Of a stretch of 64,000 nucleotides of DNA, positions 9,499 through 61,853 are shown in pieces (the stretch's first letter is position 1; every line of letters starts with the position of its first letter). This stretch comes from Desulfovibrionales bacterium. Its GTDB lineage: Bacteria > Desulfobacterota > QYQD01. The stretch lies in assembly GCA_028715605.1 (NCBI GenBank), contig JAQURM010000001.1, forward strand, positions 302,001 to 366,000, written 5' to 3'. The notes under the pieces were generated by a model. That model ran no database searches, was not told where the DNA came from, and saw only the letters and a program-made list of their open reading frames with translations. Position numbers and translations under genes: made by a program.

Positions 9499-9986
9499 GA
9501 AAATCCTCCTTTGGGAAAAATTATTTCTCACTTCAAAAATCCGGTAGTGCCAGTCGTCCGTTGTCAGTGGTCAATTGTATCTGTATATCCAAATAGTTAG
9601 ACGAAGCGTTGAAACGTTAGAGCCTTCGTTGCTACCTGGTCGAACCGGTTGATTTCTTTTGTTTTTGCAACAAACAACCGACAACAATCAATGGGCACCA
9701 CCAAAAATTGAAGATTTGAAAAATCACCGGTAGAACTATAGCAGAAAGTTATTGATTATTTCCAGAAGAAAATGAATATCCATTCAAAAAAATTGCCCCC
9801 CTTCTCTATCACTGCCTGGAAAGCTTTCTATACCCGTCCAGGCCTTTCCGCCTTTGTCCTTGACAATCATATCTAACTCATATAAAGCAGAAAAAGTTTT
9901 CTTATTTCCCCTCCTTTTCTTAATGACTAAAGTGGCCGATATAGTAATAGATATAAGGGCCTTTGTGCTCTCAGGGAGGAGGATGC
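9499..9986. other. 488-base gap between divergent adk and the propeller gene
   Basis: No gene is supported here. The left part (about 9548-9697) is a loose dyad of GTTGTC/GACAAC words, one of the window's intergenic repeat families. TTGACA (9860-9865) and TATAAA (9881-9886), 15 bases apart, may form a weak rightward promoter for the cluster that starts at 9987. The rest is AT-rich with no further structure that I can see. Confidence 0.5.
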
Positions 9987-11573
9987 ATGTACAAAATCCT
10001 TCATAAATATTATTTGCTTTGTCTGTCTCTTCTTCTCGTAATCACTCTGTGCTGGGGCTGCGCCGGGCTAAAGGAAAAACATCTGGCCGAACCGATGAAT
10101 AGCCGGCCACAGGGCAGACTCGTTCTGTTTTTGAATGGCCCGCCGCAGACCGGCCTGAATCTCACCTTTGGCCTCAGCAGCGTTGGCGTCTTCAGCGAAG
10201 AAGGCGGTTGGGAAGAGTTGCCGCTTAAACTTCAGCCGATAAACTCCCGGGGTATAATCGGACGCCAGGTCATCCTCGCGGAAAGCAAACTTGTGGCCAG
10301 GGCCTATGAAAAGCTGCGCTTTACCTTTGATCGGGCACAGGTCATTAAGGAAAATAAGGCCGCAGACCTTTCCATCCCTTCCGAAGGCCTGGAGATGGAT
10401 TTTAACTTCAGGATAGTCAAAGGGCAGGATACTTCAGTTTTTATCAACTGGGATGTAGAGGGGTCTATAGCGGATAATTATCTGTTTATCCCCGCATTTG
10501 CGCTAAAGACAGAGATTCGCGGGGTAAGAAGTCAACTGGCTTATGTAACCAATGAAGGGTCAGATAATGTAACGGTTATAAACAGAGAATGGGATGAGGT
10601 CGTTTCTACCATAGCGGTAGGAAAGGCGCCCTGCGGCTTGGCCGCCGGTACAAAAAAGACCAGGCTAAGGGTATATGTGGCCAACTCCAGGGCGAATAAC
10701 ATTACGGTCATCGATCCGACCCTAAATCAGGTCGAGCAGACCATACCTATATCATTTGGGAGACAACCCCGGGCCATTGCCGCAGCGCAGACCCGGTCAG
10801 GCAAGGAATGTCTGTTTGTGGCCAATTATGCCTCTAACAATGTCTCCATAATAGATACGGATAATTACGAAGAGATTGAACAGGTCAGGGTAGGCGTCGG
10901 CCCTATAGCCATAATCACTGACCCCCCCACGGACACCATATATAATATGAAAGGGCTGACGGCCGGTCAATTGAATCGCTGGAAGGATTATCGGGATCAA
11001 CACCTGCATATATATGTAGCCAACAGTAAGACCAACACCGTATCCGTTATCATTTTCAATACCTCTACACTGGCCGTGCAAGATACCCATACCTTAACCG
11101 TGGGCTGGAATCCGACGGCCCTGGATGTGGATGTAGAGCGGGGTAAGGTCTATGTAGCTAATAACGGCTCTGATACGATCTCAATTATCGACGCATTAAA
11201 AATCATGGATGGCTCCACCTCGGACGCGGTAACCACCTTAACCAACGTGGGCACGGGCGGGGTGGACATTGCGGTCGATGCCCTTTTTCTGAGGTTGTAT
11301 CTTTTAAAAGACCGGCCCGGTGAAGTGCTCTTCCTTAAGACTCCGGTGGAGGATATAGCTGCATCCTTGAAATCTATTATGACGCCCATTACGGGAGTGA
11401 TCGATGTGAGTGGGTTTCACCAATCCATGGCCTTGGACCCCGAAAGTAGAAAGCTTTATGTCGTGGATCGTGAAGATGGCATAGTTCACGTTATAGATAA
11501 GACTAGCCGGCGATTGATCAAGAATATTCCCGTGGGTAGCAAGCCTTATGAGATTACGATGGTTCCTTTTTGA
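9987..11573 (+). CDS. YVTN beta-propeller lipoprotein with DUF4382-like N-terminal domain
   Basis: A secreted lipoprotein of 528 residues. The signal peptide MYKILHKYYLLCLSLLLVI ends in a lipobox with Cys in CWGCAG. Residues about 40-175 look like a DUF4382-type beta domain (inference from pattern). The rest is a beta-propeller of about seven blades with repeated YVAN/YVTN motifs: YVTNEGSDN, YVANSRANN, FVANYASNN, YVANSKTNT, YVANNGSDT and a last YVVDREDG blade. Such propellers bind proteins or polymers at the cell surface. The ATG at 9987 has GGGAGGAGG four bases upstream; a TTG at 9963 would put that site inside the gene. It opens the envelope/cytochrome cluster; the barrel gene begins 17 bases later. 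Confidence 0.82.
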   Translation: MYKILHKYYLLCLSLLLVITLCWGCAGLKEKHLAEPMNSRPQGRLVLFLNGPPQTGLNLTFGLSSVGVFSEEGGWEELPLKLQPINSRGIIGRQVILAESKLVARAYEKLRFTFDRAQVIKENKAADLSIPSEGLEMDFNFRIVKGQDTSVFINWDVEGSIADNYLFIPAFALKTEIRGVRSQLAYVTNEGSDNVTVINREWDEVVSTIAVGKAPCGLAAGTKKTRLRVYVANSRANNITVIDPTLNQVEQTIPISFGRQPRAIAAAQTRSGKECLFVANYASNNVSIIDTDNYEEIEQVRVGVGPIAIITDPPTDTIYNMKGLTAGQLNRWKDYRDQHLHIYVANSKTNTVSVIIFNTSTLAVQDTHTLTVGWNPTALDVDVERGKVYVANNGSDTISIIDALKIMDGSTSDAVTTLTNVGTGGVDIAVDALFLRLYLLKDRPGEVLFLKTPVEDIAASLKSIMTPITGVIDVSGFHQSMALDPESRKLYVVDREDGIVHVIDKTSRRLIKNIPVGSKPYEITMVPF

Positions 11574-11590
11574 TAGGCTGAGGATAAGGG

Positions 11591-13879: not shown

Positions 13880-13890
13880 GGGAGGTAGTA

Positions 13891-13956
13891 ACCGTTGACC
13901 GTTCACCGAAGAAACACTATTCAGGTTCTTACAGACAACGGTGACCGGACAACGGT
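13891..13956. repeat. Intergenic dyad, ACCGTTGACC word family
   Basis: Left arm 13891-13908 and right arm 13939-13956 pair at 16 of 18 positions. Each arm is made of variants of ACCGTTGACC/GGTCAACGGT. The same words recur inside the larger elements at 34788-34950 and 36108-36280. The element sits between the barrel gene and the next lipoprotein gene and runs through the region where a TTG-initiated reading of that gene would begin. Confidence 0.75.
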
Positions 13957-13981
13957 AAACAGATACGGGAGGGCATTATTG

Positions 13982-15165: not shown

Positions 15166-15173
15166 GAGATAAA

Positions 15174-15203
15174 ATTCGAAATACGAATATCGAAATTCGA
15201 AAT
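15174..15203. repeat. Short intergenic repeat, ATTCGAAAT word family
   Basis: Three to four variants of the word ATTCGAAAT/ATACGAATAT stand in tandem. The words are themselves nearly self-complementary, so the stretch can fold or act as a dyad. It follows directly after the stop of the second lipoprotein gene. No other copy of this word family was seen in the window. Confidence 0.6.
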
Positions 15204-15287
15204 AAAATGTTGATGGTAGGGGTAGGGTTTGCCCTGCGTAATAGTCTCGTTAATCCAGACACTTCCAAGTAGTTATGAAACGGCCCT

Positions 15288-16334: not shown

Positions 16335-16337
16335 TGT

Positions 16338-16444
16338 CCATCCGGAAACTAATGTTCCCGGCTTCACGCTTTCAGCGATCAGCAATTAGCTGTCAGCAAA
16401 AACCTAAGACAAACAACACATTAAGCTGAATGCTGACGGCTTAG
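16338..16444. repeat. Intergenic dyad, AGCTGA word family (short form)
   Basis: Begins with CCATCCGGAAAC and continues with TCAGCGATCAGC-type words answered by AAGCTGAATGCTGACGGC on the right. The same left end and the same AGCTGA words occur at 34788-34950 and 36108-36280, but those copies hold an extra inner dyad that this one lacks. It separates the third lipoprotein gene from the parvulin gene. Confidence 0.7.
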
Positions 16445-16471
16445 TAAAGGGCCAAATTTGGGGAGTTAGAT

Positions 16472-18151: not shown

Positions 18152-20190
18152 AGGCTGATGATATGGTGCAGCGCATGAAAAATTCGAAGCACGTCCGCTT
18201 GCGGCGAAGCTGTCTTTGGTGTGAGACTCGGAAAATAAAATTTAACGCCATAAGCATTGCAGTATTTGTACTAGCGATCGCCCTTATCGTTTTAAGTTGT
18301 GCTGAAAGTCCAACCAGACCTCAGCGAGGTTTTGCTCCGAAGGCATGCCTGGACTGTCATGGCAAGAAATTCGATGATCTCAAAAAACCTTATGTCCATG
18401 GTCCGGCGCTCAAAAAAGACTGCGAAGTATGCCATGATCGCCATGGTAAGATACCCATCAGGACATTCAAGAAACCGGGTGCCGCGTTGTGTTATACCTG
18501 CCATGCCGCGGAAAAACTGGGGATAAGTGAAAAAGTTGCGGTTCATACCCCTATAAAAGAAGGCAAATGCATACCCTGTCATGCCCCACACGCCGGTGAC
18601 AATAAGCTCTTCTTAAAAAAGCAGGGTAATAGCCTTTGCTTTGATTGCCACGAGGAGACGCTATTTAAAGGCGCTAAAGTCCATGCCCCGGTAGAAAAGG
18701 GGTGCTCGACCTGCCACAGACCTCATGCCTCACCCCAGGCCGATCATCTTGTAAAACCTGAGACAGAGCTTTGCCTCGGTTGCCATAACTCAGGGAGCGC
18801 CTCTTTCCGGGCAGCGCATCAGAACTATCCGGTGGAAAAGGCGCATTGTACGGGATGCCATGACCCGCATGCCACAGCCCATCCTAAGTTACTAAGGCCT
18901 TCTATACATAAGCCTCTGGCGGAAAAAAGGTGTAGTTCCTGCCACCGTCCATCTGCAGATAAAGAGCCGCTAAAGGCGGTGGCTCAGGATGGCGCTCTTT
19001 GCTATTCCTGCCACGAGCAGGTCGCCAAGCGATTTGAACAGGTCTGCCGGCATAAGCCCATACAAGAGGGTAAGTGTCTGGTCTGCCATAGTCCCCATGC
19101 CACGGATTTTGTCCCCCAGTTGGTTAAGGATGTTAACTCTCTTTGCTTTGCCTGTCATAAAGAGAAGACAGGCTCTTTGAAGGCAGGTGTGCCCCATGCG
19201 CCACTCAAAAAGCAGGGTTGTACGGCCTGTCATGATGCGCATGCTGCGGCTAATAAGCAATTGCTCAAAATGGAAAAAAAGAAGCTCTGTCTCGGGTGTC
19301 ATAAGAGGGCGGAGGAAGAGCTAAGCGCAGCTTATATACATAAACCTCTTCTAGCTGATCAGTGCACGACCTGCCACAACGCCCATGGATCCAATTATAA
19401 GGGAATGCTGAGCGTATCTCCGGAGGCCCTGTGCTACAGCTGTCATAAGGAGGCCAGAGATAAATTTTATAAGGCATACGTTCATACGCCCGTAAGTAAA
19501 AAGAATTGTACAGGATGTCATAAGCCGCACGGAGCGAATTATAAGTCTCTTCTCAAGCATTCCAGGACTGATATTTGTTTCTCCTGTCATGTAGAAATGA
19601 AGAATATAGGTATAGAAGGCAAGGGTCACCCGCCGTTTATGAGAAGAGAATGCCAGGGCTGTCATGACTCCCATGCCAGTAATTATCCTATGCAGCAGAT
19701 GATCCCACCTTCTGAACTCTGTCTGAAGTGTCATAAGAATTTCGTGGCCAAAGGAAAAGATGCCCAGGCCGTACATCAACCCATAAAGGAAGGGAACTGC
19801 ATTAGCTGCCATAGCCCGCACGGTACAAAACTTGCCAGTTTGCTCCTCAACCAAACCGGCGAGCTGTGTCTGTCCTGCCATGGCCAGCTAAAGGAGGCGT
19901 TGCGTTCGGCTCGGGGGCATATGCCGGTCAAGCAAGGCAATTGTCGCGGCTGCCATCTACCCCATTACGGAGAAGAAAAAGGACTTTTGGCCAATCGTGA
20001 TCCATTCCTCTGTCTCCAGTGCCATGCCGCCGATAAACCTACTAATATCAAGGCGCATCAAGGGTTGCTCCAAAATACCAGCTTATGTCTGGAGTGTCAT
20101 GAACCACATATAGCCGCTAAAGGAAGTTTGTTGAAGAAAAATGAGCACAGTCCTTTTGCCAAGAGAGATTGCAGGCTGTGCCATAAATAA
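18148..20190 (+). CDS. Giant c-type cytochrome lipoprotein with 26 CXXCH motifs
   Basis: A 680-residue multihaem cytochrome of the doubled-CXXCH repeat type. I count 26 CXXCH haem sites, spaced as alternating pairs: CxxCH-x-PHA followed some 25-30 residues later by LCxxCH, about 13 repeats. An N-terminal hydrophobic stretch ends in a lipobox-like VLSCAES (Cys51), so the protein may be anchored in a membrane, possibly the outer one. The N-region before it is unusually long and basic; ATG codons at 18163 or 18175 are alternative starts. Numerous His residues between motifs can act as distal ligands. Translation is coupled to the parvulin gene (ATGA). It most probably carries electrons between periplasm and outside. 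Confidence 0.9.
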   Translation: MKADDMVQRMKNSKHVRLRRSCLWCETRKIKFNAISIAVFVLAIALIVLSCAESPTRPQRGFAPKACLDCHGKKFDDLKKPYVHGPALKKDCEVCHDRHGKIPIRTFKKPGAALCYTCHAAEKLGISEKVAVHTPIKEGKCIPCHAPHAGDNKLFLKKQGNSLCFDCHEETLFKGAKVHAPVEKGCSTCHRPHASPQADHLVKPETELCLGCHNSGSASFRAAHQNYPVEKAHCTGCHDPHATAHPKLLRPSIHKPLAEKRCSSCHRPSADKEPLKAVAQDGALCYSCHEQVAKRFEQVCRHKPIQEGKCLVCHSPHATDFVPQLVKDVNSLCFACHKEKTGSLKAGVPHAPLKKQGCTACHDAHAAANKQLLKMEKKKLCLGCHKRAEEELSAAYIHKPLLADQCTTCHNAHGSNYKGMLSVSPEALCYSCHKEARDKFYKAYVHTPVSKKNCTGCHKPHGANYKSLLKHSRTDICFSCHVEMKNIGIEGKGHPPFMRRECQGCHDSHASNYPMQQMIPPSELCLKCHKNFVAKGKDAQAVHQPIKEGNCISCHSPHGTKLASLLLNQTGELCLSCHGQLKEALRSARGHMPVKQGNCRGCHLPHYGEEKGLLANRDPFLCLQCHAADKPTNIKAHQGLLQNTSLCLECHEPHIAAKGSLLKKNEHSPFAKRDCRLCHK

Positions 20191-20281
20191 AATAAGTGAC
20201 AACCCCCGTATTTAATATGGGACGAATGGCGAAATTTCCGCGATACCCGGAAAGCTTATGAGATGGAGAGATGTTAACAAT

Positions 20282-22492: not shown

Positions 22493-22539
22493 TTAGGTTA
22501 AATATAACGGTTTTCCGAGTCATAAGATAATAAACTTAG

Positions 22540-23236: not shown

Positions 23237-23334
23237 GCCACGAATTGACACAAATGAACTCGAATAGATACAGGGTCCTGTATAAATTTTCATTATGCCT
23301 GCCTTATTGGGGTAGATTCGTGTTCATTCGTGGC
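23237..23334. repeat. Intergenic dyad, CCACGAATGAACACGAAT word family
   Basis: Left GCCACGAATTGACACAAATG (from 23237) and right ATTCGTGTTCATTCGTGGC (23316-23334) are complementary word by word with a small insertion on the left. It fills the gap between convergent genes, so it may also serve as a two-way terminator, although there is no clear T tract. Confidence 0.7.
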
Positions 23335-31823: not shown

Positions 31824-31945
31824 ATAAAAAAATGGGAGAAAACCGGAGCCATAAAGCCCTTGTAACACGGGATGCAATCTGGTAAGTTACGCAAGATTCG
31901 AAACTTATTTCTATGGGGCGATAGCACGGGCCGGCGCTGCATAAA

Positions 31946-34787: not shown

Positions 34788-34950
34788 ATCCGGAAACACA
34801 AGGTTTCTGGCCTACGGTCGGCCCAAGGCCGGATGGAGCAATCAGCGCTCAGCTATAAGCATGAAGCCGGTTCACCGTTCACTGTTGACCGTTTACCGAA
34901 AGAAAATGTCGGACAACGGTTAACGGATAACAAACATGCTGACGGCTGAC
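34788..34950. repeat. Composite intergenic repeat, left member of an inverted pair
   Basis: About 163 bases with near-complete reverse-complement identity to 36108-36280. Three layers can be seen: a hairpin CCATCCGG...CCGGATGG at the left end, an AGCTGA-word dyad, and inside it an ACCGTTGACC-word dyad (TTCACCGTTCACTGTTGACC answered by CGGACAACGGTTAACGG). AGCTGA-like words run on to about 34973. It fills most of the 231-base gap between argS and the SPOR gene. Confidence 0.85.
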
Positions 34951-35009
34951 AACTGATCGCTGAAAGCTTATTTTCTCCGTGTGTCCCTGTAGGTCAAGTG
35001 GGAGTAACT

Positions 35010-35651: not shown

Positions 35652-36107
35652 ATGATACGTAAGGCCCGCATATCTGATGTCGCCAATATCCATCAATTGC
35701 TTAGCACGTTTGCCAAACAAGGCGATCTATTGGGTCGATCGTTAAGCGAGCTTTACGATAACCTGCGCGATTTCTATGTTTATCAGGATGGCGACCATGG
35801 GCCGGTCGTAGGTAGCTGCGCTTTGCATATTTGCTGGGGAGACCTTGCAGAGATCAGATCACTGGCTGTAGTTGAGGATTTTCAGAGGCGTGGAATAGGG
35901 AGAAGTCTGGTGGAGGCATGTATCAGCGAGGCCATTACCCTGGGTATTTACAGGATATTTACCCTGACAAACCGGCCGGATTTTTTTATGCGCCTTGGAT
36001 TTATAAAGATTGATAAGGCGACTTTGCCGCAAAAGATCTGGAGCGATTGCATAAAATGTTACAAATTCCCTCAATGTGATGAGGTAGCTTTGCTGTTAGA
36101 GGTATGA
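35652..36107 (+). CDS. ArgA-like GNAT N-acetyltransferase
   Basis: A 151-residue GNAT acetyltransferase. The acetyl-CoA site is visible in SLAVVEDFQRRGIGRSLVEAC (motif A, RRGIG). The last third, FMRLGFIKIDKATLPQKIW followed by SDCIKCYKFPQCDEVALL, is characteristic of the short N-acetylglutamate synthase-like proteins of deltaproteobacteria, so it may catalyse the first step of arginine synthesis. argJ lies 2.7 kb downstream, consistent with that. The two clustered Cys pairs (CIKC, C of PQC) near the end could bind metal. Four bases after the SPOR gene, AAAGGA before ATG. Confidence 0.82.
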   Translation: MIRKARISDVANIHQLLSTFAKQGDLLGRSLSELYDNLRDFYVYQDGDHGPVVGSCALHICWGDLAEIRSLAVVEDFQRRGIGRSLVEACISEAITLGIYRIFTLTNRPDFFMRLGFIKIDKATLPQKIWSDCIKCYKFPQCDEVALLLEV

Positions 36108-36280
36108 GCTGTCAGCATGTTTGTTATCCGTTATCCGTTAACCGTTAACCGTTGTCCGACATTTTCTTTCGGTAAACGGTCAACAGTGAATGGTGAACCG
36201 GCTTCATGCTTATAGCTGAGCGCTGATTGCTCCATCCGGCCTTAGGCCGACCGTAGGCCAGAAACGGTAGTTTCCGGATG
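36108..36280. repeat. Composite intergenic repeat, right member of an inverted pair
   Basis: Reverse-complement copy of 34788-34950, about 95% identical by eye. It is longer mainly because the word GTTAACGGATAACG is repeated where the left copy has it once. It fills the gap between the acetyltransferase and secA genes and, with its partner, brackets a 1.1-kb two-gene segment. Confidence 0.85.
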
Positions 36281-36318
36281 AAAACTAAATAGAAATTTAT
36301 TATTTGTTCGGGGTAAAG

Positions 36319-41016: not shown

Positions 41017-41031
41017 CCCTTGCGATGTCAA

Positions 41032-41160
41032 GAAGTTCAAAATTCAAAGCTCAAAATTAAAATCACTACCAAATGTCAAAGCTCAAATAGAGAAGCGCCT
41101 TTGACATTTGTCATTTGAACTTCATTTGAACTTTGGGTTTTGTCATTTGAAATTTGCGCA
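41032..41160. repeat. Intergenic dyad, CATTTGAACTTTG word family
   Basis: The left half has TTCAAAATTCAAAGCTC and ATGTCAAAGCTCAAATAG; the right half answers with TTTGACATTTGTCATTTG, TTCATTTGAACTTTGGG and TGTCATTTGAAATTTG. Arms are composed of tandem words of 8-9 bases with single changes. It fills the rpsB-tsf gap and would be copied into the joint mRNA. Confidence 0.75.
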
Positions 41161-41234
41161 AAGCGTTTTTGGTTGCGGCTTTGCCGCGCTGTGGTTAATC
41201 TTTTGATAATATGTCTAGTTTTAAGGGGGTAAGA

Positions 41235-44793: not shown

Positions 44794-45948
44794 TTGAAAA
44801 TATTATCTATCCTGGGTTCTACCGGGTCTATTGGGCGCAACGCGTTGGAAGTGGCCGCGCGTTTTCCGGAACGTTTCCAGGTAGCCGGACTTTCTGCCGG
44901 CAAGAACATCGGATTGTTGATAGAACAGATTGAACGCTTTAGGCCGCGCCTGGTCTCTGTCCAGGATGAGAGACTGGCTGTGGAGTTAAAGGCCCGGATG
45001 CTGGCGGGGCTGGGCGTGGAGGTTGCTTCCGGTATAAACGGGTATAGAGAGGTGGCTACGCTGCCGGAAGTTGATATGGTTGTCTCGGCTATGGTGGGCG
45101 CTGCCGGTCTCGTGCCCACTTACGAGGCCATCTGTGCGGGGAAGAATATTGCCCTGGCCAATAAAGAAGTCCTGGTTACCGCCGGTTCGCTGATTATGAA
45201 AGCAGCCAGGGATAAGGGCGTCTCCATTAACCCTGTTGATAGTGAGCATGGCGCCATTTTTCAGTCCCTGTTAGGACACCGTAAAGAAGATGTCAGGAGG
45301 ATCATACTCACAGCTTCAGGCGGACCGTTCTTGCATTATACTTATGAGATGTTGCATAATATAGCCCCGGCCGAGGCCTTAAAACATCCCAACTGGCAAA
45401 TGGGCAGGAAGATAACGATTGACTCTGCCTCCTTAATGAACAAGGGACTGGAGGTTATAGAGGCTAAATGGCTTTTTGATCTCTCCGTCGAGCAGATAGT
45501 CGTGCAAATACACCCACAGAGTATAGTGCATTCTATGGTGGAGTACATAGATGGTTCCATAATTGCTCAACTGGGCATACCGGACATGCGTATTCCGATT
45601 GCCTATGCCCTTTCCGCCCCGGAGCGGATCGATATGGGGCTTCCCCGGCTGGATCTTCCATCAGTAAATAACCTGACTTTTTTAGAACCGGATATGGACA
45701 AATTTCCATGCCTGCGGCTGGCGTATGCGGCTTGTAAGCAGGGAGGGACACTGCCCGTTGTCCTTAATGCGGCCAATGAGGTAGCGGTAGATGCCTTTCT
45801 CGAAGGCCGCATAAGATTCACGGATATTGTCCGTGTCGTGGAAGGCACGATGAATGGTTCGGAAGCCTCAGCAGTTAATTCACTGGAAGACGTCATGGCA
45901 GCGGATCGTTTGGCCAGAATCCGGGCTGAAGAAGAGGTTAAAAAATAA
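44794..45948 (+). CDS. dxr: 1-deoxy-D-xylulose 5-phosphate reductoisomerase
   Basis: First committed enzyme of the MEP isoprenoid pathway; it turns DXP into MEP with NADPH. The 384-residue protein starts at TTG 44794 with MKILSILGSTGSIGRNALEV, the nucleotide-binding signature. NKEVLVTAGSLI, PVDSEHGAIFQSL (metal ligands Asp and Glu) and NWQMGRKITIDSASLMNKGLE are the expected active-site blocks. The upstream uppS uses the end product of this route. The gap to rseP holds a repeat dyad. Confidence 0.96.
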   Translation: MKILSILGSTGSIGRNALEVAARFPERFQVAGLSAGKNIGLLIEQIERFRPRLVSVQDERLAVELKARMLAGLGVEVASGINGYREVATLPEVDMVVSAMVGAAGLVPTYEAICAGKNIALANKEVLVTAGSLIMKAARDKGVSINPVDSEHGAIFQSLLGHRKEDVRRIILTASGGPFLHYTYEMLHNIAPAEALKHPNWQMGRKITIDSASLMNKGLEVIEAKWLFDLSVEQIVVQIHPQSIVHSMVEYIDGSIIAQLGIPDMRIPIAYALSAPERIDMGLPRLDLPSVNNLTFLEPDMDKFPCLRLAYAACKQGGTLPVVLNAANEVAVDAFLEGRIRFTDIVRVVEGTMNGSEASAVNSLEDVMAADRLARIRAEEEVKK

Positions 45949-46037
45949 TTCAGAATCCAGAATCCAGAATCCAGAATTGATAATGTCTCGATTCTTTCAT
46001 CTTTCTTCTGTTTTCTGGCTCCTGAATTCTACATTTT
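45949..46037. repeat. Intergenic dyad, GAATCCAGAATCCAG word family
   Basis: Left: ATTCAGAATCCAGAATCCAG, three tandem copies of the word AGAATCC and a fourth variant. Right: CTTCTGTTTTCTGGCTCCTG followed by AATTCTACATTTTGGCT, imperfectly complementary. It fills the dxr-rseP gap. The same words recur weakly in the dyad at 56377-56497. Confidence 0.7.
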
Positions 46038-46089
46038 GGCTTACGCAGTGAGATTTTTGACAATACCCGTGTGTAGGGAACGAGGATAG

Positions 46090-47954: not shown

Positions 47955-47989
47955 TGAACAAAGTTCGATGAACTCATAAAAAATAAAAA

Positions 47990-48100
47990 TTACCGCAGAG
48001 GTCGCTGAGAACGCCGAGATAACATATTAAACAGTTTAAAGTTTTTCTCTGCGGGCTCTGCGTACTCAGCGGTGAAAAGGCTTTCTTACGAATTGATCAA
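47990..48100. repeat. Intergenic dyad, CGCAGAG word family (member of an inverted pair)
   Basis: 111 bases; TACCGCAGAGGTCGCTGAG on the left and CTCTGCGTACTCAGCGGTGA on the right can pair. A reverse-complement copy of exactly the same length, about 90% identical, is at 61743-61853. Identity extends past the dyad through GGCTTTCTTACGAATTGATC, so the copied unit includes more than the hairpin. Confidence 0.85.
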
Positions 48101-48129
48101 GTTTAGTTTGCGAGGGATGGTAATAAGAT

Positions 48130-50046: not shown

Positions 50047-50068
50047 GAACGGGGGGACTGTTCAGATA

Positions 50069-50155
50069 GCCACCAGGGCACAAAGGCACAAAAGCCTGCG
50101 CTTAGATGTTTTGAAAGGATAATTCTCTAATCTTAGTGTCTTGGTGTCTTAGTGG
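50069..50155. repeat. Intergenic dyad, CACCAAGACAC word family (short form)
   Basis: CCACCAGGGCACAAAGGCAC on the left is answered by TCTTAGTGTCTTGGTGTCTT and AGTGG on the right; about 17 of 23 positions pair. The middle has TTAGATGTTTTGAAAGGATA, a short relative of the TTAGCGTTTTGAAAATG start of the 175-base element at 54821. It separates ilvB and ilvN. Confidence 0.72.
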
Positions 50156-50184
50156 TCGAATAGTTAAAAAACGGGAGATTGCTC

Positions 50185-50670: not shown

Positions 50671-50681
50671 TTATACTGAAC

Positions 50682-50766
50682 GTCATTAGTCATCGGTCAT
50701 TGGTTAACTGTGGAAGATTGCTTTCTTTTACCAGTGACAAATGACAATTGACTAATGACCAGTGAC
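50682..50766. repeat. Intergenic dyad, GTCATTAGTCATTGG word family
   Basis: Left words GTCATTAGTCATCGGTCATT; right words CCAGTGACAAATGACAATTG and ACTAATGACCAGTGAC. Arms are loosely complementary, with each word 7-8 bases long and slightly changed. It fills the ilvN-ilvC gap, ending about 28 bases before the ilvC ATG. Confidence 0.7.
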
Positions 50767-53242: not shown

Positions 53243-54775
53243 ATGAAAGATAAGATTTTTATTTTTGATACGACCTTGCGGGATGGCGAGCAATCGCCCG
53301 GCGCCAGCATGAACATCAGCGAAAAGGTGCGCGTAGCGCATCAACTGGAAAAATTAAATGTGGATATCATAGAGGCGGGATTTCCTGTGGCTTCCAGGGG
53401 TGATTTTGAAGCCGTAAAGGCCGTGGCCAAAGAGATAAAAAACATCCAGGTGGCGGCCCTGGCCCGGTCCAACACCAAGGACATCGACCGGGCTGCAGAG
53501 GCCCTTAAAGCAGCCAAGCACCCATGCATCCACATATTTCTCGCCACTTCGGATATCCATCTTAAGTATAAGCTGAAAAAGAGCCGGGAAGAAGTGTTAA
53601 AAATGGCGGCGGAGGCTGTAAGGTACGCCCGGCGTTATGCGGACAGCGTGGAGTTTTCAGCCGAAGATGCCTCACGCAGTGACCTGGACTTTGTCTGTAA
53701 GGTTTTTGCCTCGGTGATAAAGGCAGGGGCCACGGTTCTCAATTTCCCGGACACCGTCGGATACGCCGTGCCGGATGAATTCGGGCAAAAGATTAAATAT
53801 GTCATGGAGCGCACCCCGGGCATAGAGAAGGCCCGGTTAAGCGTGCATTGCCATAATGACCTCGGCCTGGCGGTAGCCAATTCCCTGGCCGCCATAGCCC
53901 ATGGGGCGCGTCAGGTAGAGGTGACCATAAACGGCATAGGCGAGCGGGCCGGCAATGCCGCTTTGGAAGAAGTGGTTATGGCTATCCGGACGCGGGCGGA
54001 TGCCCTGAAAGTGCAAACGGATATAGTTACCGAGCACATCTGTGCTTCCAGCCGGCTGGTTACCATGATTACCGGCATACCCGTTCAGCCCAACAAGGCC
54101 ATAGTGGGGGCGAATGCCTTTGCACATGAGGCCGGGATACATCAGGACGGTGTGCTAAAGGAACGGACCACCTACGAGATTATGAATCCCTGTGCCATCG
54201 GCCTGGCCAAGAGCAGCCTGGTGATGGGAAAACACTCCGGCCGGCATGCCTTTAAGCAGAGACTGAAAGAGCTTGGGTATAAGCTGGGAGAGGCCGATAT
54301 AGACCGGGCCTTCGAGAGATTCAAGGACCTGGCAGATAAGAAGAAAACGGTCTTCGATGACGATATCGAGGCCCTGATTACGGATGAGATCTTTCGAGGT
54401 AAGGATAAGTACCAATTGGTCTATCTGGGAGTAGTTACCGGGACTGAGGCTGTTCCTACGGCTACAGTTCAGATTGACATTGACGGGGAGCTTCAGCAGG
54501 AGGCCGAGTTCGGGGTCGGCCCGATTGATGCGACTTTTAATGCTATTACCAAGATAACCAAGGTAAAGGCAAAGCTGCTCCGTTTCTCGGTGAACTCCAT
54601 CACCGGGGGCACGGATGCCCAGGGAGAGGTTACCGTGCGGCTGGAGGAAGATGGTCAGGTGGTTATCGGCCAGGGGGCGGATGCGGACATTATTATAGCC
54701 AGCGCCAAGGCCTATTTGAACGCCTTAAACAGACTGGAATATCTCAAGAGAAATCCGGTCAAGTCGCTTTATTAA
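53243..54775 (+). CDS. leuA: 2-isopropylmalate synthase
   Basis: First step of leucine synthesis: condensation of 2-oxoisovalerate with acetyl-CoA. The 510-residue type I enzyme begins with [35 protein letters not shown] holds the metal-binding His pair, and [14 protein letters not shown] is also conserved. The C-terminal regulatory LeuA_dimer domain (about 370-500) is present, so leucine feedback is expected. In contrast to a citramalate synthase the HINGIGER-type motif reads [11 protein letters not shown] 323-base gap with nested repeats separates it from leuC. Confidence 0.96.
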
Positions 54776-54778
54776 GAC

Positions 54779-55026
54779 TGCCAACAAGGCACCAAGACAC
54801 AAAAGAATAATCGTAGCAATTTAGCGTTTTGAAAATGCATGATAAAAAGTGCAAAGAAACATATCAAATCTGGAACTCAGGGACTCAGGGAAGTGCAAAC
54901 CCAAATAAAGAGGGTCTATCTTTTCCTGATTTTCTGAGTTCCAGATTAATAGCCTTTTCTGAATGTAGGACTATTTCAAACACCTAAAGTGTTACGAATA
55001 ATCTTAGTCTTAGTGGCTGAATAGTT
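54779..55026. repeat. CACCAAGACAC dyad holding a 175-base inserted element
   Basis: Outer arms GCCAACAAGGCACCAAGACA (from 54779) and TAATCTTAGTCTTAGTGGCT (from 54998) are the same words as at 50069-50155. Between them lies the 175-base unit 54821-54995, which recurs at 58226-58400. Inside that unit, AATCTGGAACTCAG and CTGAGTTCCAGATT form a perfect 14-bp stem. So three layers are nested. The unit also holds an open frame of 50 codons (54835-54987), without a convincing ribosome-binding site. This fills most of the 323-base leuA-leuC gap. Confidence 0.85.
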
Positions 55027-55098: not shown

Positions 55099-56376
55099 AT
55101 GGGCATGACTATTACAGAGAAGATACTGGCTCAGGGGGCGAGACTGGCTGAGGTCAAACCGGGCCAGCTCATTGAGGTCCAAATCGATATGGCCCTGGGT
55201 AATGACATTACGGCTCCTCTGGCTATTGATATAGTGCGATCAGCCGGGGTTAAATCCGTATTTGACCGGGAGAAGGTAGCCCTGGTTCCCGATCACTTTG
55301 TGCCGAACAAGGATATAAAGGCCGCCACTCAGGTCAAAATCCTGCGTGATTTTGCCAAAGAGTTCGGCATTGTGAATTACTTTGAGCTGGGCGAGATGGG
55401 GGTTGAACACGCCCTTTTGCCGGAAAAAGGGATGGTGCTGCCCGGGGACATCGTGATCGGTGCGGACAGCCATACCTGCACCTATGGCGCACTGGGCGCC
55501 TTTGCCACGGGCGTGGGAAGCACCGATCTGGCGGCTGCGATGATTACCGGCAAGGTCTGGCTCAAGGTCCCGGAGTCCATGAAATTCATTTATCATGGTA
55601 AACGTCCGCCTTTTGTCTGTGGCAAGGACCTTATCTTATATGCCATTGGGCAGATCGGCGTGGATGGCGCCCTTTACCGTGCTATGGAATTTACCGGGGA
55701 AGCCATAGACGAGCTGCCCATGGCCGACCGTTTTACTATGGCGAATATGGCCATTGAGGCGGGCGGTAAAAACGGGATCATAGCGCCGGATAAGGCCACA
55801 GAGGCATACGTGCGTGGCCGCAGCCGGAGAAAGCACCGGTTTTATGCCAGTGATAAAGATGCTACGTATGTCGAGACTATTGAGTACGACGTCTCAAGGA
55901 TTGAGCCACAGGTAGCCTTCCCGCATCTGCCGTCAAATACCAGGGGCATTTCCCATGTGGGAGATGTGCCCATCGATCAGGCGGTAATCGGTTCTTGCAC
56001 CAATGGCCGTCTGGAGGATCTGGAGATTGCAGCCCATGTTCTTCGAGGGCGGAAGGTTGCCCCGCATGTACGCCTGATCGTTATTCCGGCTACGCCCTGG
56101 ATTTACCGGCAGGCCATGCATCAAGGGCTTTTCGATATCTTCCTGGAGGCGGGCGGCATCATAAGTCCGCCTACCTGCGGTCCTTGCTTAGGCGGGCACA
56201 TGGGCATTCTGGCTAAAGGCGAACGGGCCATAGCCACAACTAACCGGAATTTCGTCGGCCGTATGGGCCATCCGGAGAGCGAGGTCTATCTGGCCAATCC
56301 GGCGGTAACCGCGGCATCGGCTGTTTTGGGCCGCATAGGCGGGCCGGGAGAACTCGGGGTAATACCAAAAGATTAA
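55099..56376 (+). CDS. leuC: 3-isopropylmalate dehydratase, large subunit
   Basis: Aconitase-family subunit with the 4Fe-4S cluster; isomerises 2- to 3-isopropylmalate. Cluster cysteines are in [10 protein letters not shown] near residue 299 and [12 protein letters not shown] near 358-369. [25 protein letters not shown] near 122-146 is the substrate-side block. 425 residues corresponds to the shorter LeuC2 (archaeal/homoaconitase-like) subfamily; the Escherichia coli type has about 466. The ATG at 55099 stands 12 bases after AAAGGAAGG. The hairpin upstream may regulate it. Confidence 0.95.
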
Positions 56377-56497
56377 CCACAGAGCACACAGAGAGATAAA
56401 AAAGAGATAGGATTCAAAATACAGAAGGAATTAAAAAGATTGGATCCTCCGGTATCGAGTCTTCTGACTCCTGAATTCTGTCTCCTACATTCTGTGG
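56377..56497. repeat. Intergenic dyad, CACAGAG and GAATTCAGAA words mixed
   Basis: CCACAGAGCACACAGAGAG at the left edge is answered by CTACATTCTGTGGC on the right. Inside, GGATTCAAAATACAGAAGG and TCTTCTGACTCCTGAATTCT are also loosely complementary, with words like those at 45949-46037. This is again one dyad type inside another. It fills the leuC-leuD gap. Confidence 0.65.
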
Positions 56498-56510
56498 CTG
56501 AGGAGAAAAG

Positions 56511-57008
56511 ATGAAACTAACAGGCAAGGTCTGGAAATTCGGCGATAATATTGACACCGATGTGATTATACCGGCCAGGCATCTGACTACGTTTGACCCC
56601 AGAGAATTGGCCAGGCATTGTATGGAAGACAAAGATCCATCATTTGCACAGAAAGTAAAGCCTGGGGATATTATAGTGGCTGGCAGAAACTTTGGCTGCG
56701 GGTCTTCGCGGGAGCACGCCCCCATTGCCCTTAAAGGTTGCGGCCTGAGCTGTGTGGTAGCCAGGAGCTTTGCCCGCATCTTTTTCCGGAACGCATTCAA
56801 TATGGGGCTTCTAATTTTTGAATGTCCGGAAGTGGCTGACGCCGTAGAGGAAGGCGATACCATGGAGATAGATGTGGCTTCGGGTAAAATCTTTATCGCG
56901 GGGAAGGGGCTTTCATTTGCGGCCCAGCCGGTTCCTCCCTTTATGCAGGAATTGCTGAGAGATGGCGGCCTCATTCCGCATATTATGAAGAAGGTGAAAA
57001 GGGCTTAA
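56511..57008 (+). CDS. leuD: 3-isopropylmalate dehydratase, small subunit
   Basis: Swivel subunit that completes the LeuCD enzyme. The 165 residues start MKLTGKVWKFGDNIDTDVIIPARHL, and NFGCGSSREHAPIALKGCG near 62-80 is the conserved substrate-recognition loop. Short single-domain LeuD of this type pairs with the LeuC2 subfamily upstream, so the pair is consistent. GAGGAG lies before the ATG. A CGCAGAG-type repeat follows and then leuB, so the order leuC-leuD-leuB is kept despite two repeat elements between genes. Confidence 0.96.
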   Translation: MKLTGKVWKFGDNIDTDVIIPARHLTTFDPRELARHCMEDKDPSFAQKVKPGDIIVAGRNFGCGSSREHAPIALKGCGLSCVVARSFARIFFRNAFNMGLLIFECPEVADAVEEGDTMEIDVASGKIFIAGKGLSFAAQPVPPFMQELLRDGGLIPHIMKKVKRA

Positions 57009-57013
57009 TTTTT

Positions 57014-57068
57014 CACCGCAGAGCACGACGAGAACGCAGAGAAAAGTTTTTAAAGTATCTTCTGCGGC
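57014..57068. repeat. Short intergenic repeat, CGCAGAG word family
   Basis: CACCGCAGAGCACGACGAGA followed by ACGCAGAGAAAAG and, on the right, CTTCTGCGGCTAA. The words match the larger dyads at 47990-48100 and 61743-61853, but the right arm is reduced to one word. It looks like a truncated copy between leuD and leuB. Confidence 0.65.
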
Positions 57069-57095
57069 TAAATCAAAAGGAGATAGACAGATATT

Positions 57096-58163
57096 ATGGG
57101 AACCAGAAACTATAACATTGCAATTATTCCGGGGGATGGCACTGGTCCTGAGGTTATTGCCCAGGGGATCAAAGTCCTTAAGGCGGCTGGAGACTTATAT
57201 GGCATAACGTTCCATTTTACGGAGTTTGATTTCGGTGGAGAGCGTTACCTGCGTACCGGCGAGACCCTACCGGATACGGCTATTGAGGAGTTAAAAGGCT
57301 TTCAGGCCATTTACCTGGGCGCTATCGGGCACCCGGGGGTCAAGCCCGGCATCCTGGAAAAGGGTATCTTACTTAAACTCCGTTTTGCCCTTGATCAGTA
57401 CATAAATCTCCGGCCGGTTATCCTCTATCCGGGGGTGGATACGCCCCTTAAAGATAAAAGACCGGAGGATATTGATTTTCTGGTGGTGCGCGAAAACACG
57501 GAAGGGCTTTATGCCGGCGCCGGCGGGGTGCTGAGAAAAGGGACACCGGATGAGGTGGCCGTACAGGAGTCCATAAATACCAGGAAGGGCGTAGAACGCT
57601 GCATACGCTTTGCCTTTGACTCTTGCCGGCGTCGCAACAAGCGCCGCAAATTGACCCTGTGCGGTAAGACAAACGTGCTTACTTTTGCCTTCGATCTATG
57701 GGAGCGAACCTTCCATGAGGTAGCTAAAGAATATCCGGATATTCAAACGGATTATGCCCATGTAGATGCTATCTGTATGTGGATGGTCAAGAACCCGGAA
57801 TGGTTTGATGTCATCGTAACTGATAATATGTTTGGGGATATAATTACTGATCTGGGGGCCATGATCCAGGGCGGCATGGGCATTGCCGCAGGCGGGAACA
57901 TAAATCCCGGCGGTGTATCCATGTTTGAGCCTATCGGCGGCTCAGCGCCCAAATACACCGGGAAGAATGTCATTAATCCATTGGCGGCTATAGCGGCCGG
58001 GCAGATGATGGTGGATAATCTGGGCGAAGAGAAGGCGGCGCGGGCTATAGAAATCGGCATTAAGGAGATCGTGACAAGGCTGAAGAGCCTGGCTGCCGGC
58101 AAGATGGGTTATACTACTACCGAAGTAGGCGATCTGGTTGTGTCGGTCTTGCCGAAGCCATAA
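57096..58163 (+). CDS. leuB: 3-isopropylmalate dehydrogenase
   Basis: Oxidative decarboxylation of 3-isopropylmalate with NAD, the last specific leucine step before transamination. The 355-residue protein has IAIIPGDGTGPEVIAQGIKVL, the substrate arginines in KLRFALDQYINLRPV, VVRENTEGLYAGAGG, and the metal site in VTDNMFGDIITDLGAM, followed by GGSAPKYTGKNVINPLA. The relatives isocitrate and tartrate dehydrogenase share these motifs; placement next to leuCD decides the call. A 318-base repeat-filled gap follows. Confidence 0.94.
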   Translation: MGTRNYNIAIIPGDGTGPEVIAQGIKVLKAAGDLYGITFHFTEFDFGGERYLRTGETLPDTAIEELKGFQAIYLGAIGHPGVKPGILEKGILLKLRFALDQYINLRPVILYPGVDTPLKDKRPEDIDFLVVRENTEGLYAGAGGVLRKGTPDEVAVQESINTRKGVERCIRFAFDSCRRRNKRRKLTLCGKTNVLTFAFDLWERTFHEVAKEYPDIQTDYAHVDAICMWMVKNPEWFDVIVTDNMFGDIITDLGAMIQGGMGIAAGGNINPGGVSMFEPIGGSAPKYTGKNVINPLAAIAAGQMMVDNLGEEKAARAIEIGIKEIVTRLKSLAAGKMGYTTTEVGDLVVSVLPKP

Positions 58164-58167
58164 GTGC

Positions 58168-58455
58168 GTTCAGCCCTCAGCCGTCAGCGATCCGCAAGAT
58201 AAAAAACAATAATTATCACAACAAGTTAGCGTTTTGAAAATGGATGATAAAAAGTGCAAAGAAACATATCAAATCTGGAAATCAGGAACTCAGGGAAGTA
58301 CAAACCCAAATAAAGAGGGTTTATCTTTTCCTGATTTTCTGAGTTCCAGATTAATAGCCTTTTCTGAATGTAGGACTGTTTCAAACACCTAAAGTGTTAC
58401 TAATTAACTATGGAGACTTTTTTGTTTTTACTGAAAGCTGATAGCTGATCGCTTA
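58168..58455. repeat. AGCTGA dyad holding the second copy of the 175-base element
   Basis: Outer arms TTCAGCCCTCAGCCGTCAGC (near 58170-58190) and ACTGAAAGCTGATAGCTGAT (near 58430-58449) belong to the AGCTGA word family. Between them 58226-58400 repeats 54821-54995 with six substitutions in 175 bases and no indel. The same element thus sits in two different host dyads. The 50-codon open frame is kept (58240-58392), with four amino-acid changes. This fills the leuB-asd gap. Confidence 0.85.
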
Positions 58456-58481
58456 GAATTATTGCAAAAGGAGTGAAGACC

Positions 58482-59507: not shown

Positions 59508-59576
59508 GAGGGACTGATCTTAAGTCACCGGATAAGTTTTAGTTAGTACCCCTAGAGCGCCAAAGGAGGCATGGTT

Positions 59577-60662: not shown

Positions 60663-60670
60663 AGGCATAA

Positions 60671-61243
60671 TTGCGTATTATTGCCGGTACGGCTAAAGGA
60701 CGGAACTTGGCGCCGATAAAAGGAAAAGGGATCCGGCCTACCAGCGACAAGATTCGGCAGGCTATTTTTAATATCCTGAACCTGGACTGGGATGGAGCCC
60801 GGGTGCTGGACCTCTTTGCCGGTACGGGCGCCCTGGGGATTGAAGCCTTAAGCCGCGGGGCGTCAGAGGCAGTTTTTATTGACCACCATCCCTATGCCAT
60901 TGAGACCATCAAAAAGAATCTCTTGCTTTGCGGTTTTTCCGAAAAAGGACGAGTCTTCCAGAAAAATCCGCTACATGGCCTGGGATTTCTGGAAAAGCCC
61001 GGACTCCTTTTTGACGTAATATTTATGGACCCTCCTTACGGCCAGGGCATGGCCCGGAAGACGCTGGAGTTGCTGGCCCGGGATAATTTAATGAAACCGG
61101 ATGGAGTAGTGGTGGTGGAATGCGATAAGGCAGAGGTTTTATCTTCCCCTGCCGGTTTTCAGATACAGGGTGAAAAGAGAGCTTATGGCCGAACCACGGT
61201 CTATTTTTTTGAGAAAGAAGGACGGGAGGAAGCAGGTGGGTAA
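60671..61243 (+). CDS. rsmD: 16S rRNA (guanine-966-N2)-methyltransferase RsmD
   Basis: RsmD methylates N2 of G966 in helix 31 of 16S rRNA. The 190-residue protein starts with TTG at 60671, MRIIAGTAKGRNLAPIKGKG, then RPTSDKIRQAIFNIL, VLDLFAGTGALGIEALSRGA (SAM motif I) and the catalytic MDPPYGQ near residue 117-123. All are family standards. It overlaps coaD by 8 bases, the widespread rsmD-coaD pair. It follows the aldolase gene by eight bases. Confidence 0.95.
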   Translation: MRIIAGTAKGRNLAPIKGKGIRPTSDKIRQAIFNILNLDWDGARVLDLFAGTGALGIEALSRGASEAVFIDHHPYAIETIKKNLLLCGFSEKGRVFQKNPLHGLGFLEKPGLLFDVIFMDPPYGQGMARKTLELLARDNLMKPDGVVVVECDKAEVLSSPAGFQIQGEKRAYGRTTVYFFEKEGREEAGG

Positions 61244-61742
61244 GCATAGAATCGTGGGAGAGGTCGTTGCCATCTATCCCGGGACGTTTGATCCTATAAC
61301 TAACGGTCACATCGATGTAGTCAACCGGGCGCTCAATATGTTTGACCGGGTTATTATTGCCGTAGCCGTAAACCCGACTAAAAAGCCCCTCTTTACAATT
61401 GAAGAACGTGTGGAGATAATCCGGGAGACTATTAATGAAAATCCACGGATAGAGATCGATACCTTTACCGGTCTCCTCGTAGATTATGTAGCCAACTGTC
61501 AGGCCAATGTTATTGTGCGCGGGCTGCGGGCTGTCTCGGATTTCGATTATGAATTTCAGATGGCCCTGATGAATCGCCGGCTCAACCGTAATATTGAAAC
61601 TGTCTTTCTCATGACCGGGTTCCGCTGGATTTTTATCAGCTCTACCATGATCAGGGAAGTAGCAAGCTTGGGGGGATCAGTAGAAGGGTTGGTCCCGGAT
61701 GTGGCTTGCCGCCGATTGAAAGAAAAATTTAAGATATCCTAA
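61236..61742 (+). CDS. coaD: Phosphopantetheine adenylyltransferase CoaD
   Basis: CoaD adenylates 4'-phosphopantetheine, the penultimate coenzyme A step. The 168-residue nucleotidyltransferase has VAIYPGTFDPITNGHIDV (TxGH-type motif) near residue 11-28, VRGLRAVSDFDYEFQMALMN, and FISSTMIREVASLGG near the C terminus (the ISSTxIR motif). I chose GTG 61236, preceded by GGGAGGA and overlapping rsmD; the frame is open for 22 more codons upstream within rsmD. The CGCAGAG repeat begins on the base after the stop codon. Confidence 0.94.
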   Translation: MGKHRIVGEVVAIYPGTFDPITNGHIDVVNRALNMFDRVIIAVAVNPTKKPLFTIEERVEIIRETINENPRIEIDTFTGLLVDYVANCQANVIVRGLRAVSDFDYEFQMALMNRRLNRNIETVFLMTGFRWIFISSTMIREVASLGGSVEGLVPDVACRRLKEKFKIS

Positions 61743-61853
61743 TTGATCAATTCGTAAAAAAGCCTTCTCACCGCTGAGCACGCAGAGTCCGCAGAGAAAA
61801 AGTGTAAACTATTCAATATGTTATCTCAGCGTTCTCCGCGACCTCTGCGGTAA
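61743..61853. repeat. Intergenic dyad, CGCAGAG word family (inverted partner)
   Basis: Reverse-complement copy of 47990-48100, 111 bases, about 90% identical, including the flanking ATTGATCAATTCGTAA end. It lies exactly between the coaD stop and the end of rng, which converge. The arms ACCGCTGAGCACGCAGAG and CTCTGCGGT-containing words pair at about 20 of 27 positions, so it may serve as a two-way terminator here. Confidence 0.85.

Follow-up and report, generated by a model that had tools for sequence, protein, structure and literature searches.

Dyads of tandem short words between genes of a Desulfovibrionales bacterium as candidate arms of very small mobile elements

Introduction

The gaps between genes in a 64,000-nucleotide stretch of the genome of a Desulfovibrionales bacterium (GenBank assembly GCA_028715605.1, contig JAQURM010000001.1, positions 302,001 to 366,000; hereafter, the window) contain imperfect inverted repeats (dyads) with arms that consist of slightly varied tandem copies of a short word, and the words belong to many families. 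What could produce and disperse one design in so many sequences? A first-pass annotation of the window suggested that the architecture rather than the sequence is kept, and pointed to slippage, structure-driven copying, reverse transcription or transposition as possible sources. Here we argue that the dyads are probably the arms of very small mobile elements that, in their full-length form, consist of inverted tandem-word arrays around a single small open reading frame (ORF), and that the copies in the window are ORF-less. Sequence comparison points to two putative classes: class 7, with words of mostly 7 nt (sometimes 8 nt) around an ORF of PF05635, the S23p/IVP family of rRNA intervening sequences, and class 9, with usually two or three words of 8–10 nt around an ORF for a PF13366 PD-(D/E)XK nuclease.

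Results

Small genes between inverted word arrays

Dyads with tandem-word arms are associated with ORFs of two protein families. The first, PF05635 (23S rRNA-intervening protein, a four-helix bundle), is matched 5 times in this genome and 4–7 times in each of its four congeners (G001–G004), compared to no match in 14 control genomes. By reading, four of the five ORFs in this genome lie between inverted word arrays, the exception being L214. When the sequence upstream of each ORF was compared with the reverse complement of the downstream sequence, and a dyad was called at z>=5 relative to shuffles, 18 of the 27 PF05635 matches in the genus had dyad flanks, as against 4 of the 179 control ORFs, one of these four being itself a PF05635 ORF; three loci (L203, L212, and L216) are dyads by eye and yet score below z 5.

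The same association extends to 30 genomes that were reached through CGCAGAG loci and hand-picked to span phyla. PF05635 is present in 25 of these, in 24 of them above the cut-off; 91 of the 123 matches were tested for dyads (the 32 left out being mostly short or weak), and 63 of the 91, from 21 of the 25 genomes, have dyad flanks at z>=5, compared to 7 of 217 control ORFs from the CGCAGAG loci. The words vary from element to element (GGGTGTA, GGTAAGC, GTAGTAG, AGTACTTAGTATTT, and others) and the period is nearly constant: autocorrelation of the arms reaches 0.584 at lag 7 and 0.536 at lag 14, versus about 0.31 in shuffled arms, and the best lag is 7 in 63 of 86 arms and 8 in another 18. By a rough count, the pN/pS ratio is 0.07 for L198 against its copies in G001 and G004, and 0.13 for L192 against L197, a pair in which synonymous sites are saturated. 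The four-helix protein of L192 matches the PDB structure 2gsc (XCC0516), apparently the Xanthomonas S23p protein that is called a homopentamer in PMC4990558.

The second family is PF13366 (PDDEXK_3), to which three dyad-flanked control ORFs belong: L123 and L173, within CGCAGAG dyads, and L016:12678-13055 of this genome, within a CGCAAAG-type dyad. A targeted search detected this PD-(D/E)XK nuclease in 31 of 35 genomes, compared to 3 of 14 controls. Dyads surround 50 of the 67 tested ORFs, in 22 of 26 genomes, with 67 of the 119 matches tested and the remaining 52, mostly fragments along with some full-length ORFs, left out. The period differs from that of the PF05635 arms: the best lag is 8, 9, or 10 in 27, 31, and 20 of the 86 arms, respectively, and lag 7 shows no excess. 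The words include CGCAGAG, CACAGAG, CGCAAAG, CACGAAT, CACGGAT, and ACAGGAT and, in the genus, also GAACTCAGG (L412 and L413). The arrays are oriented relative to the gene, given that, among the 34 elements with at least three CGCAGAG-like words, forward words prevail upstream (73 forward, 13 reverse) and reverse words prevail downstream (84 reverse, 14 forward). Thus, 157 of 184 words are oriented as expected, with opposite or mixed order in 5 of the 34 elements. The D, E, and K residues of the nuclease motif are found in 50, 47, and 50 of 50 sequences, respectively. The predicted structure of one PF13366 protein (mean predicted local distance difference test score, pLDDT, of 65) has the Holliday-junction resolvase 4tkd as its top Foldseek match, which is not significant (E 0.15), and a profile built from 29 PF13366 proteins retrieved no PDB sequence up to E 5. 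From their sequences, the PF05635 and PF13366 proteins both look maintained.

Two further kinds of ORF were seen in similar surroundings. ORFs of DUF559 (PF04480), L010:2216-2566 (the same as L364) and L359–L377, frequently have inverted C-rich hairpin arms on either side; 7 of the 13 tested (out of 19 matches) have dyads at z>=5, mostly with such C-rich arms and in one case with a GTCATT word dyad, so that DUF559 is possibly a third cargo class. A Uma2 (PF05685) ORF in a Sphaerospermopsis genome, L119:4493-5068, lies between inverted arms with TAAGGAAT/GAGGACTGAAGTCCTC units.

Words covary with the encoded proteins

Across genomes, the similarity of the words correlates with the identity of the enclosed proteins, with a Mantel r of 0.179 for 63 PF05635 elements and 0.345 for 50 PF13366 elements (0 of 2000 permutations in each case). 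Both correlations hold after the GC content is partialled out, and the flanks located 500–560 bp from the PF05635 ORFs show no such relationship (r -0.016). Particular pairs from different phyla illustrate the trend: L203 of this genus and L270 of Auribacterota encode proteins that are 73% identical and have the word GAATTCAGGAGTCAG in common; for L205 of a congener and L321 of Deferribacteres, the protein identity is 65% and the common word is AAAGTGAACTAAAG; and L201 of a congener and L295 of Ignavibacteriae (58%) both have GTCATT-type words. Each gene lineage thus seems to keep, if loosely, its own repeat word.

The exact 18-mer GACGCAGAGAACGCAGAG occurs in at least 118 stretches from many phyla in a scan of a genome collection, compared to a chance expectation of about 8 for the whole collection (by arithmetic only, from 257 billion bases, both strands, and 18 fixed bases). 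The matches listed include Cyanobacteria, Acidobacteria, Chloroflexi, Planctomycetes, Verrucomicrobia, Spirochaetes, Gemmatimonadota, Proteobacteria, Latescibacteria, and Auribacterota, among others. The recurrence of this word and the tendency of words to follow the encoded protein lend no support to the view, put forward in the first-pass annotation, that the sequence is arbitrary and only the architecture is kept.

Dyads in the gaps of the window and of the genome

Dyads were detected as inverted repeats with a score of at least 12 and an arm autocorrelation of at least 0.38 at lag 7–10, in window gaps of at least 60 bp whose limits were drawn manually on the gene map; outside the window, the gene calls were crude. 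Tandem-word inverted repeats are present at the places originally listed and were called in 15 of the 27 window gaps, compared to 0–2 in 10 dinucleotide shuffles. Two of the 15 calls (gaps 4430 and 8680) are doubtful, being AT-rich or plain hairpins by appearance, and the gap at 9531–9963, where the originally described span starts, is a weak case with a score of 14; conversely, the detector missed three visible dyads, two of the CGCAGAG family (near 57014 and near 61769) and one of the AGCTGA family (near 16365). In 20 stretches from the rest of the genome, 70 of 183 gaps were called, well above the shuffled intergenic DNA (9, 11, and 3) and coding segments of equal length (8 and 6). A stricter test on the crude gene calls retained 26 of 194 gaps, versus none in 5 shuffles and 0, 1, and 1 in coding controls, and within the window, only 2 of 24 gaps passed.

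With up to two mismatches, GAACTCAGGAACTCAGG has 90 copies genome-wide and its reversed control none. The paired CGCAGAG word is represented by 43 copies in this genome (control 0), 24–49 in each of the four congeners (with one control match among all four), and 0–9 in 15 genomes from other families of the phylum (control 0–3). Copies within a family are alike over their entire length of about 100–200 bp, many being 85–97% identical, with dozens of relatives of single elements in the congeners.

The proposal of one design that is realized with many words and is not reducible to one known repeat class is supported by these comparisons, including those of orthologous gaps described below. Two accompanying claims stand only in part. 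The first, that each gap holds one main type, is qualified by the nesting of dyads in one another and in shells that resemble miniature inverted-repeat transposable elements (MITEs), at 34797–34972, 54775–55020, and 58163–58455. The second, avoidance of coding regions, is borne out by the statistics, but arms overlap the ends of ORFs, and congeners carry inserts at positions 63430, 27614, and 28228, where the window has an open frame.

Window dyads resemble the arms of ORF-bearing elements

Arms from 18 window slices, less those at 13900 and 48000, were compared with the arms of ORF-bearing elements, and a match was accepted if it scored better than the best of 30 shuffles. By this measure, 9 of the 10 word families of the window match an arm of some ORF-bearing element. 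The matches to PF05635 elements are ATTCGAAAT with L209, AGCTGA with L197, GTCATT with L201, CATTTGAAC with L208, GAATCCAG with L314 and L270, and ACCGTTGACC with L212; those to PF13366 elements are CGCAGAG with L397 and others, CACGAAT with L407 and L416 (by a narrow margin, 18 vs 16 and 15), and GAACTCAGG with L412. By their sequences, the window dyads (Table 1) look like ORF-less, shortened copies of such elements.

Table 1 Word dyads and related features of the window, with their matches to ORF-bearing elements and their state in the congeners G001–G004.
Feature	Position	Strand	Remarks
ACCGTTG/ACCGTTC 7-mer dyad	13885..13961		Arms with lag 7 called; orthologous place in G001 without dyad
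ATTCGAAAT 7-mer array, single arm	15174..15204	+	Matches arm of PF05635 element L209, 22 vs best shuffle 13
AGCTGA 7-mer dyad next to CATCCGGAAAC end	16340..16450		Read in sequence; matches PF05635 element L197; missed by detector
CACGAATGAA 10-mer dyad	23237..23334		Called; matches PF13366 elements L407 and L416, 18 vs best shuffle 16 and 15
Nested: CATCCGGAAAC hairpin, AGCTGA dyad, ACCGTT dyad	34797..34972		Called; content differs in G001–G004
Second, inverted copy of the nested element 34797–34972	36107..36313		10–28 bp instead in G002, G003, G004
CATTTGAAC/AAGTTCAAA 7-mer dyad with further repeats	41030..41212		Absent from G002, G003; matches PF05635 element L208, 23 vs best shuffle 15
GAATCCA 7-mer dyad	45944..46055		Called; CGCAGAG-type elements here in G002, G003, G004
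CGCAGAG 9-mer dyad	47965..48109		Missing in G001 (7 bp remain) and G002
CACCAAG/CACAAAG 8-mer dyad	50063..50162		Lag 8, score 12; seen in sequence
GTCATTA 7-mer dyad	50680..50762		Missing in G003, G004, 3-bp junction repeat; other family in G001; matches PF05635 element L201
CACCAAG dyad around MITE-like shell 54817–54995 around GAACTCAGG 9-mer dyad 54867–54947	54775..55020		Matches PF13366 elements L412, L413; 54817–54995 missing in G003
CACAGAG arm and GATTCAAAATACAG/GAATTCAGGAGTC dyad	56376..56511		Called; G004 has GGTTGAGT dyad within CGCAGAG dyad here
CGCAGAG dyad, right arm degenerate	57014..57073		Read in sequence; missed by detector; loop in G004 holds GGTTGAGT dyad
AGCTGA dyad around MITE-like shell around GAACTCAGG dyad 58272–58352	58163..58455		Called; matches L412, L413; AGCTGA arm matches L197
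CGCAGAG 9-mer dyad, convergent genes on either side	61769..61858		Matches PF13366 elements, 20 vs best shuffle 15; missed by detector; other nested element in G001

Gain, loss, and replacement among congeners

When the window was compared by BLAST with stretches of the four congeners, the alignments broke at the dyads, which come and go at orthologous gaps, and one family can be replaced by another in a relative. Clean absences were observed for 50680–50762 (G003 and G004), 54817–54995 (G003), 13885–13961 (G001), 41030–41212 (G002 and G003), and 47965–48109 (G001), and 36127–36313 is missing in G002 and G003, with 10 bp remaining there. Conversely, elements are present where the window is empty, at 22496, 60664, and 61222 in G001 and at 63430 in G003 and G004. 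Replacement is apparent at 61742 (CGCAGAG in the window, CCGGAAAC/AGCTGA/ACCGTT in G001) and at 45943 (GAATCCA in the window, CGCAGAG-type in G002, G003, and G004).

ORF-bearing elements behave likewise. Between CheY-like and CheA-like genes, as assigned by reading the flanks, this genome carries L203, and G001 and G003 carry an AGCTGA element with a protein that is 41% identical. At the junction of L209, the four congeners have 100–200 bp of other word repeats, too short for the ORF.

Dyads also reside inside the loops of other dyads: in G003, a CACCAAG dyad lies within the loop of the CGCAGAG dyad at 48031, and in G004, the CGCAGAG loops at 56393 and 57045 hold GGTTGAGT dyads. Despite these cases, targeting of hairpin loops is unsupported in general: 19 empty sites (several of which are one place in two species) had a mean of 15.2 spanning pairs, compared to 14.3 at 300 random intergenic points.

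Other features of the window and the genome

Elsewhere in this genome (L016:16-2786, C2 ~200016–202786) there is an array that resembles clustered regularly interspaced short palindromic repeats (CRISPR), with 46 exact copies of GTTCATCCCCACGCCTGTGGGGAACA at a spacing of about 61 bp; the repeat resembles those of type I-E. In the window, direct repeats at 18970–21361 resemble CxxCH heme-binding units, suggesting multiheme cytochrome genes. A GC-rich dispersed element of about 180 bp at 31654–31834, with the ends GGAACCCC...GGGGTTCC and many copies in congeners, is not a word dyad and was not on the earlier list; in its place, G001–G004 have shorter, unrelated sequence. Within the open frame 26217–28442, G002 and G003 carry extra C-rich sequence of the AATTCCCCC type at 27614–27668 and 28228–28232, and because the net differences of 150 and 90 bp are multiples of three, the reading frame may be intact. 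In Geobacter bemidjiensis, a family has been described whose insertion into genes causes no frameshift (PMC2996986).

Discussion

How might such elements work? We suggest that each protein would recognize its own word array, perhaps with protomers lined up on repeats of fixed spacing, and that the two inverted arrays would mark a copy for mobilization with or without the ORF. Class 9 elements might be cut by the PD-(D/E)XK protein itself, and class 7 elements by some other enzyme or by host enzymes. A ring or row of protomers on evenly spaced words would explain why the period is nearly constant for a protein family and the word is variable. Once transcribed, the two arms would be expected to fold into stems of the kind that RNase III cuts in intervening sequences, which would lower the cost of residing in operons.

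Several observations weigh against this scenario. The Mantel correlations between words and proteins are modest, and for PF13366, the outer flank, 500–560 bp away, also correlates weakly (r 0.074, 19 of 1000 permutations). The closest relatives of the AGCTGA proteins in other genomes adjoin other words, and a word is sometimes common to distant proteins. No dyad reached z>=5 around 28 of the 91 PF05635 and 17 of the 67 PF13366 ORFs tested. The PF13366 family extends beyond such elements, given its relatives in 3 of the 14 control genomes, and the genome frequencies are biased because the genomes were found by the CGCAGAG scan and hand-picked. In the window, the CACCAAG family produced no match to an ORF-bearing element that passed the shuffle test.

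Finally, the repeats at the junctions of empty sites vary in length between about 3 and 9 bp, some of them being those of MITE-like shells. Accordingly, some of the movement may be due to ordinary transposases, and we do not claim target duplication; no single target-site duplication was found. It could be argued more generally that DDE transposases move ordinary MITEs and the dyads travel with them as passengers, such that shells (for example, TAGTGTTCATCCGGAAAC or GTAACACTTTAGGTGTTT) move and the words and small ORFs ride inside. Indeed, several dyads lie within shells that have end repeats of their own and junction repeats of about 4–9 bp (54817–54995; 22496, 60664, and 61742 in G001). We nevertheless consider this explanation unlikely, because many dyads have no shell (13885–13961, 50680–50762, and 47965–48109) and because shells predict neither one period for each ORF family nor words that track the protein.

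The location of dyads in tight operons and between convergent genes (61769–61858) is also consistent with sites that are kept by the host for regulation or RNA processing, for example, IHF/HU sites, RNase III stems, terminators, or transcript stabilizers, with the ORFs being accidental tenants. Such roles were proposed for repeats of comparable design, namely, paired 7–8-mer arrays of Geobacter as regulator sites (PMC2700814) and hairpins of cyanobacterial short tandemly repeated repetitive sequences (STRRs) as transcript stabilizers (PMC2670836). However, the positions are not conserved, the orthologous gaps of sister species being empty or occupied by another family, and the covariation of words and proteins across phyla would be left unexplained, which makes this alternative quite improbable.

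Copying of the elements via RNA by a reverse transcriptase appears very improbable. RVT_1 matches exist in four of the five genomes (1, 2, 2, and 4 matches). The four-helix fold family includes the accessory proteins (Avd) of diversity-generating retroelements (DGRs). Avd_like co-occurs with DGRs (PMC8934634). Yet, G001, which is 98% complete, has no RVT_1 match and carries elements missing from the window, so that a resident reverse transcriptase seems not to be required, and the route via reverse transcription considered in the first-pass annotation finds no support.

We give very little credence to a REPIN-like mechanism, in which the dyads would be moved by RAYTs (transposases associated with repetitive extragenic palindromic, or REP, sequences) or other Y1 transposases. 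Each of the five genomes has 2–5 Y1_Tnp matches, but four of the five Y1_Tnp loci of G000 are flanked by a different palindrome, GTAGGGTGGGC...GCCCACCCTAC, and none of the five lies between inverted word arms; the remaining locus, L223, is without this palindrome, and several hundred bases downstream there is word-like sequence. RAYT/REP was accordingly rejected as the mover. The 11-base core of this palindrome does not occur in the window. The RAYT-like genes of G000 at L228, L232, L236, and L238 and the accompanying palindromes look like a classic REP family that is distinct from the word dyads.

Replication slippage or structure-driven copying that writes the arrays on the spot, one of the ideas raised in the first-pass annotation, is in keeping with the tandem, slightly varied words, the nested palindromes, the variable array length, and the difference in heptamer number between strains in the Coxiella intervening sequence (PMC4990558), but is hardly credible as the source, given that slippage can adjust the length of an array and cannot create the pattern itself, that the same words recur across phyla and beside related proteins, that whole elements are dispersed at high identity, and that slippage would not predict the tie between the design and two ORF families.

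Returning to small mobile elements as the preferred explanation, a broader proposal, for which we would not go beyond a tentative statement, is that such elements represent a distinct kind of mobile element that reaches across a large part of the bacterial tree. Two small, mutually unrelated proteins, a four-helix bundle with relatives that form pentameric rings and a PD-(D/E)XK nuclease, might each have evolved recognition of word arrays with a fixed period and move the DNA between inverted arrays by means of neither a known transposase nor reverse transcriptase, in which case the same phenomenon would have been glimpsed locally in the form of rRNA intervening sequences, cyanobacterial STRRs, TAACTGA repeats, and Geobacter 'regulator sites'. 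If so, two common, poorly understood protein families would acquire a home and a testable role; one design would account for several repeat sets that were reported separately and without a mechanism; rRNA intervening sequences would turn from a curiosity into the visible edge of a common genomic parasite; and a protein–repeat recognition system would be at hand whose likely target word stands next to the gene and can be read there. Our searches of the open-licence literature brought up no paper that links dyads outside rRNA to ORFs of PF05635 or PF13366, states the period rule, or describes the covariation of words and proteins.

Comparison with known systems

Like REPINs with their RAYTs and MITEs, the elements described here are short, dispersed, and palindromic, and exist mostly as ORF-less copies; unlike them, they have arms made of tandem words and enclose ORFs of PF05635, PF13366, and, in some cases, PF04480. 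No Y1 or DDE transposase was found between the arms examined, although no search aimed at DDE families was made.

Closer in design are the 'predicted global regulator binding sites' of Geobacter metallireducens, dispersed paired arrays of 3–5 tandem 7–8-mers on opposite strands at a variable distance, which were read as IHF/HU sites (PMC2700814). By our own comparison, the unit of Geobacter class 2, TCTCCGTS, resembles on the other strand the class 9 word CACGGAG. In contrast to the dyads analyzed here, the Geobacter arrays are not linked to PF05635 or PF13366 ORFs in the accessible text of that paper.

The cyanobacterial STRRs are intergenic 7-bp tandem repeats, some of them capable of forming hairpins, with function given as unknown (PMC2670836), and the TAACTGA repeats are known from several phyla, without an evident mechanism (PMC4679880). 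Class 7 arms share the STRR character of intergenic, hairpin-capable tandem 7-bp repeats, whereas class 9 has a period of 8–10. In the accessible descriptions (PMC2670836, PMC4679880), both STRRs and TAACTGA repeats are direct repeats of one word, with no inverted pair around an ORF.

The closest likeness is to the intervening sequences (IVSs) of 23S rRNA. The IVS of Coxiella contains an S23p ORF and a 28-bp stem formed by terminal inverted repeats; directly before the ORF, it has tandem heptamers, two in some strains and three in others (PMC4990558). The common features are the ORF of the PF05635 family, the terminal inverted repeats, the heptamers beside the ORF, the decay to ORF-less forms, and horizontal spread by a route given as unknown in that source. 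The elements described here differ in that they lie between protein genes, have many families in one genome, with ORF-less copies far outnumbering those with an ORF, and include a second class that carries a nuclease. Searches with Rfam produced no match in the window or in 20 element loci and hence no rRNA at these 20 loci. By analogy, class 7 elements would work like IVSs but are not rRNA IVSs themselves. It looks as if the rRNA intervening sequences make up one corner of a wider class, which, taken as a whole, may well merit its own name.

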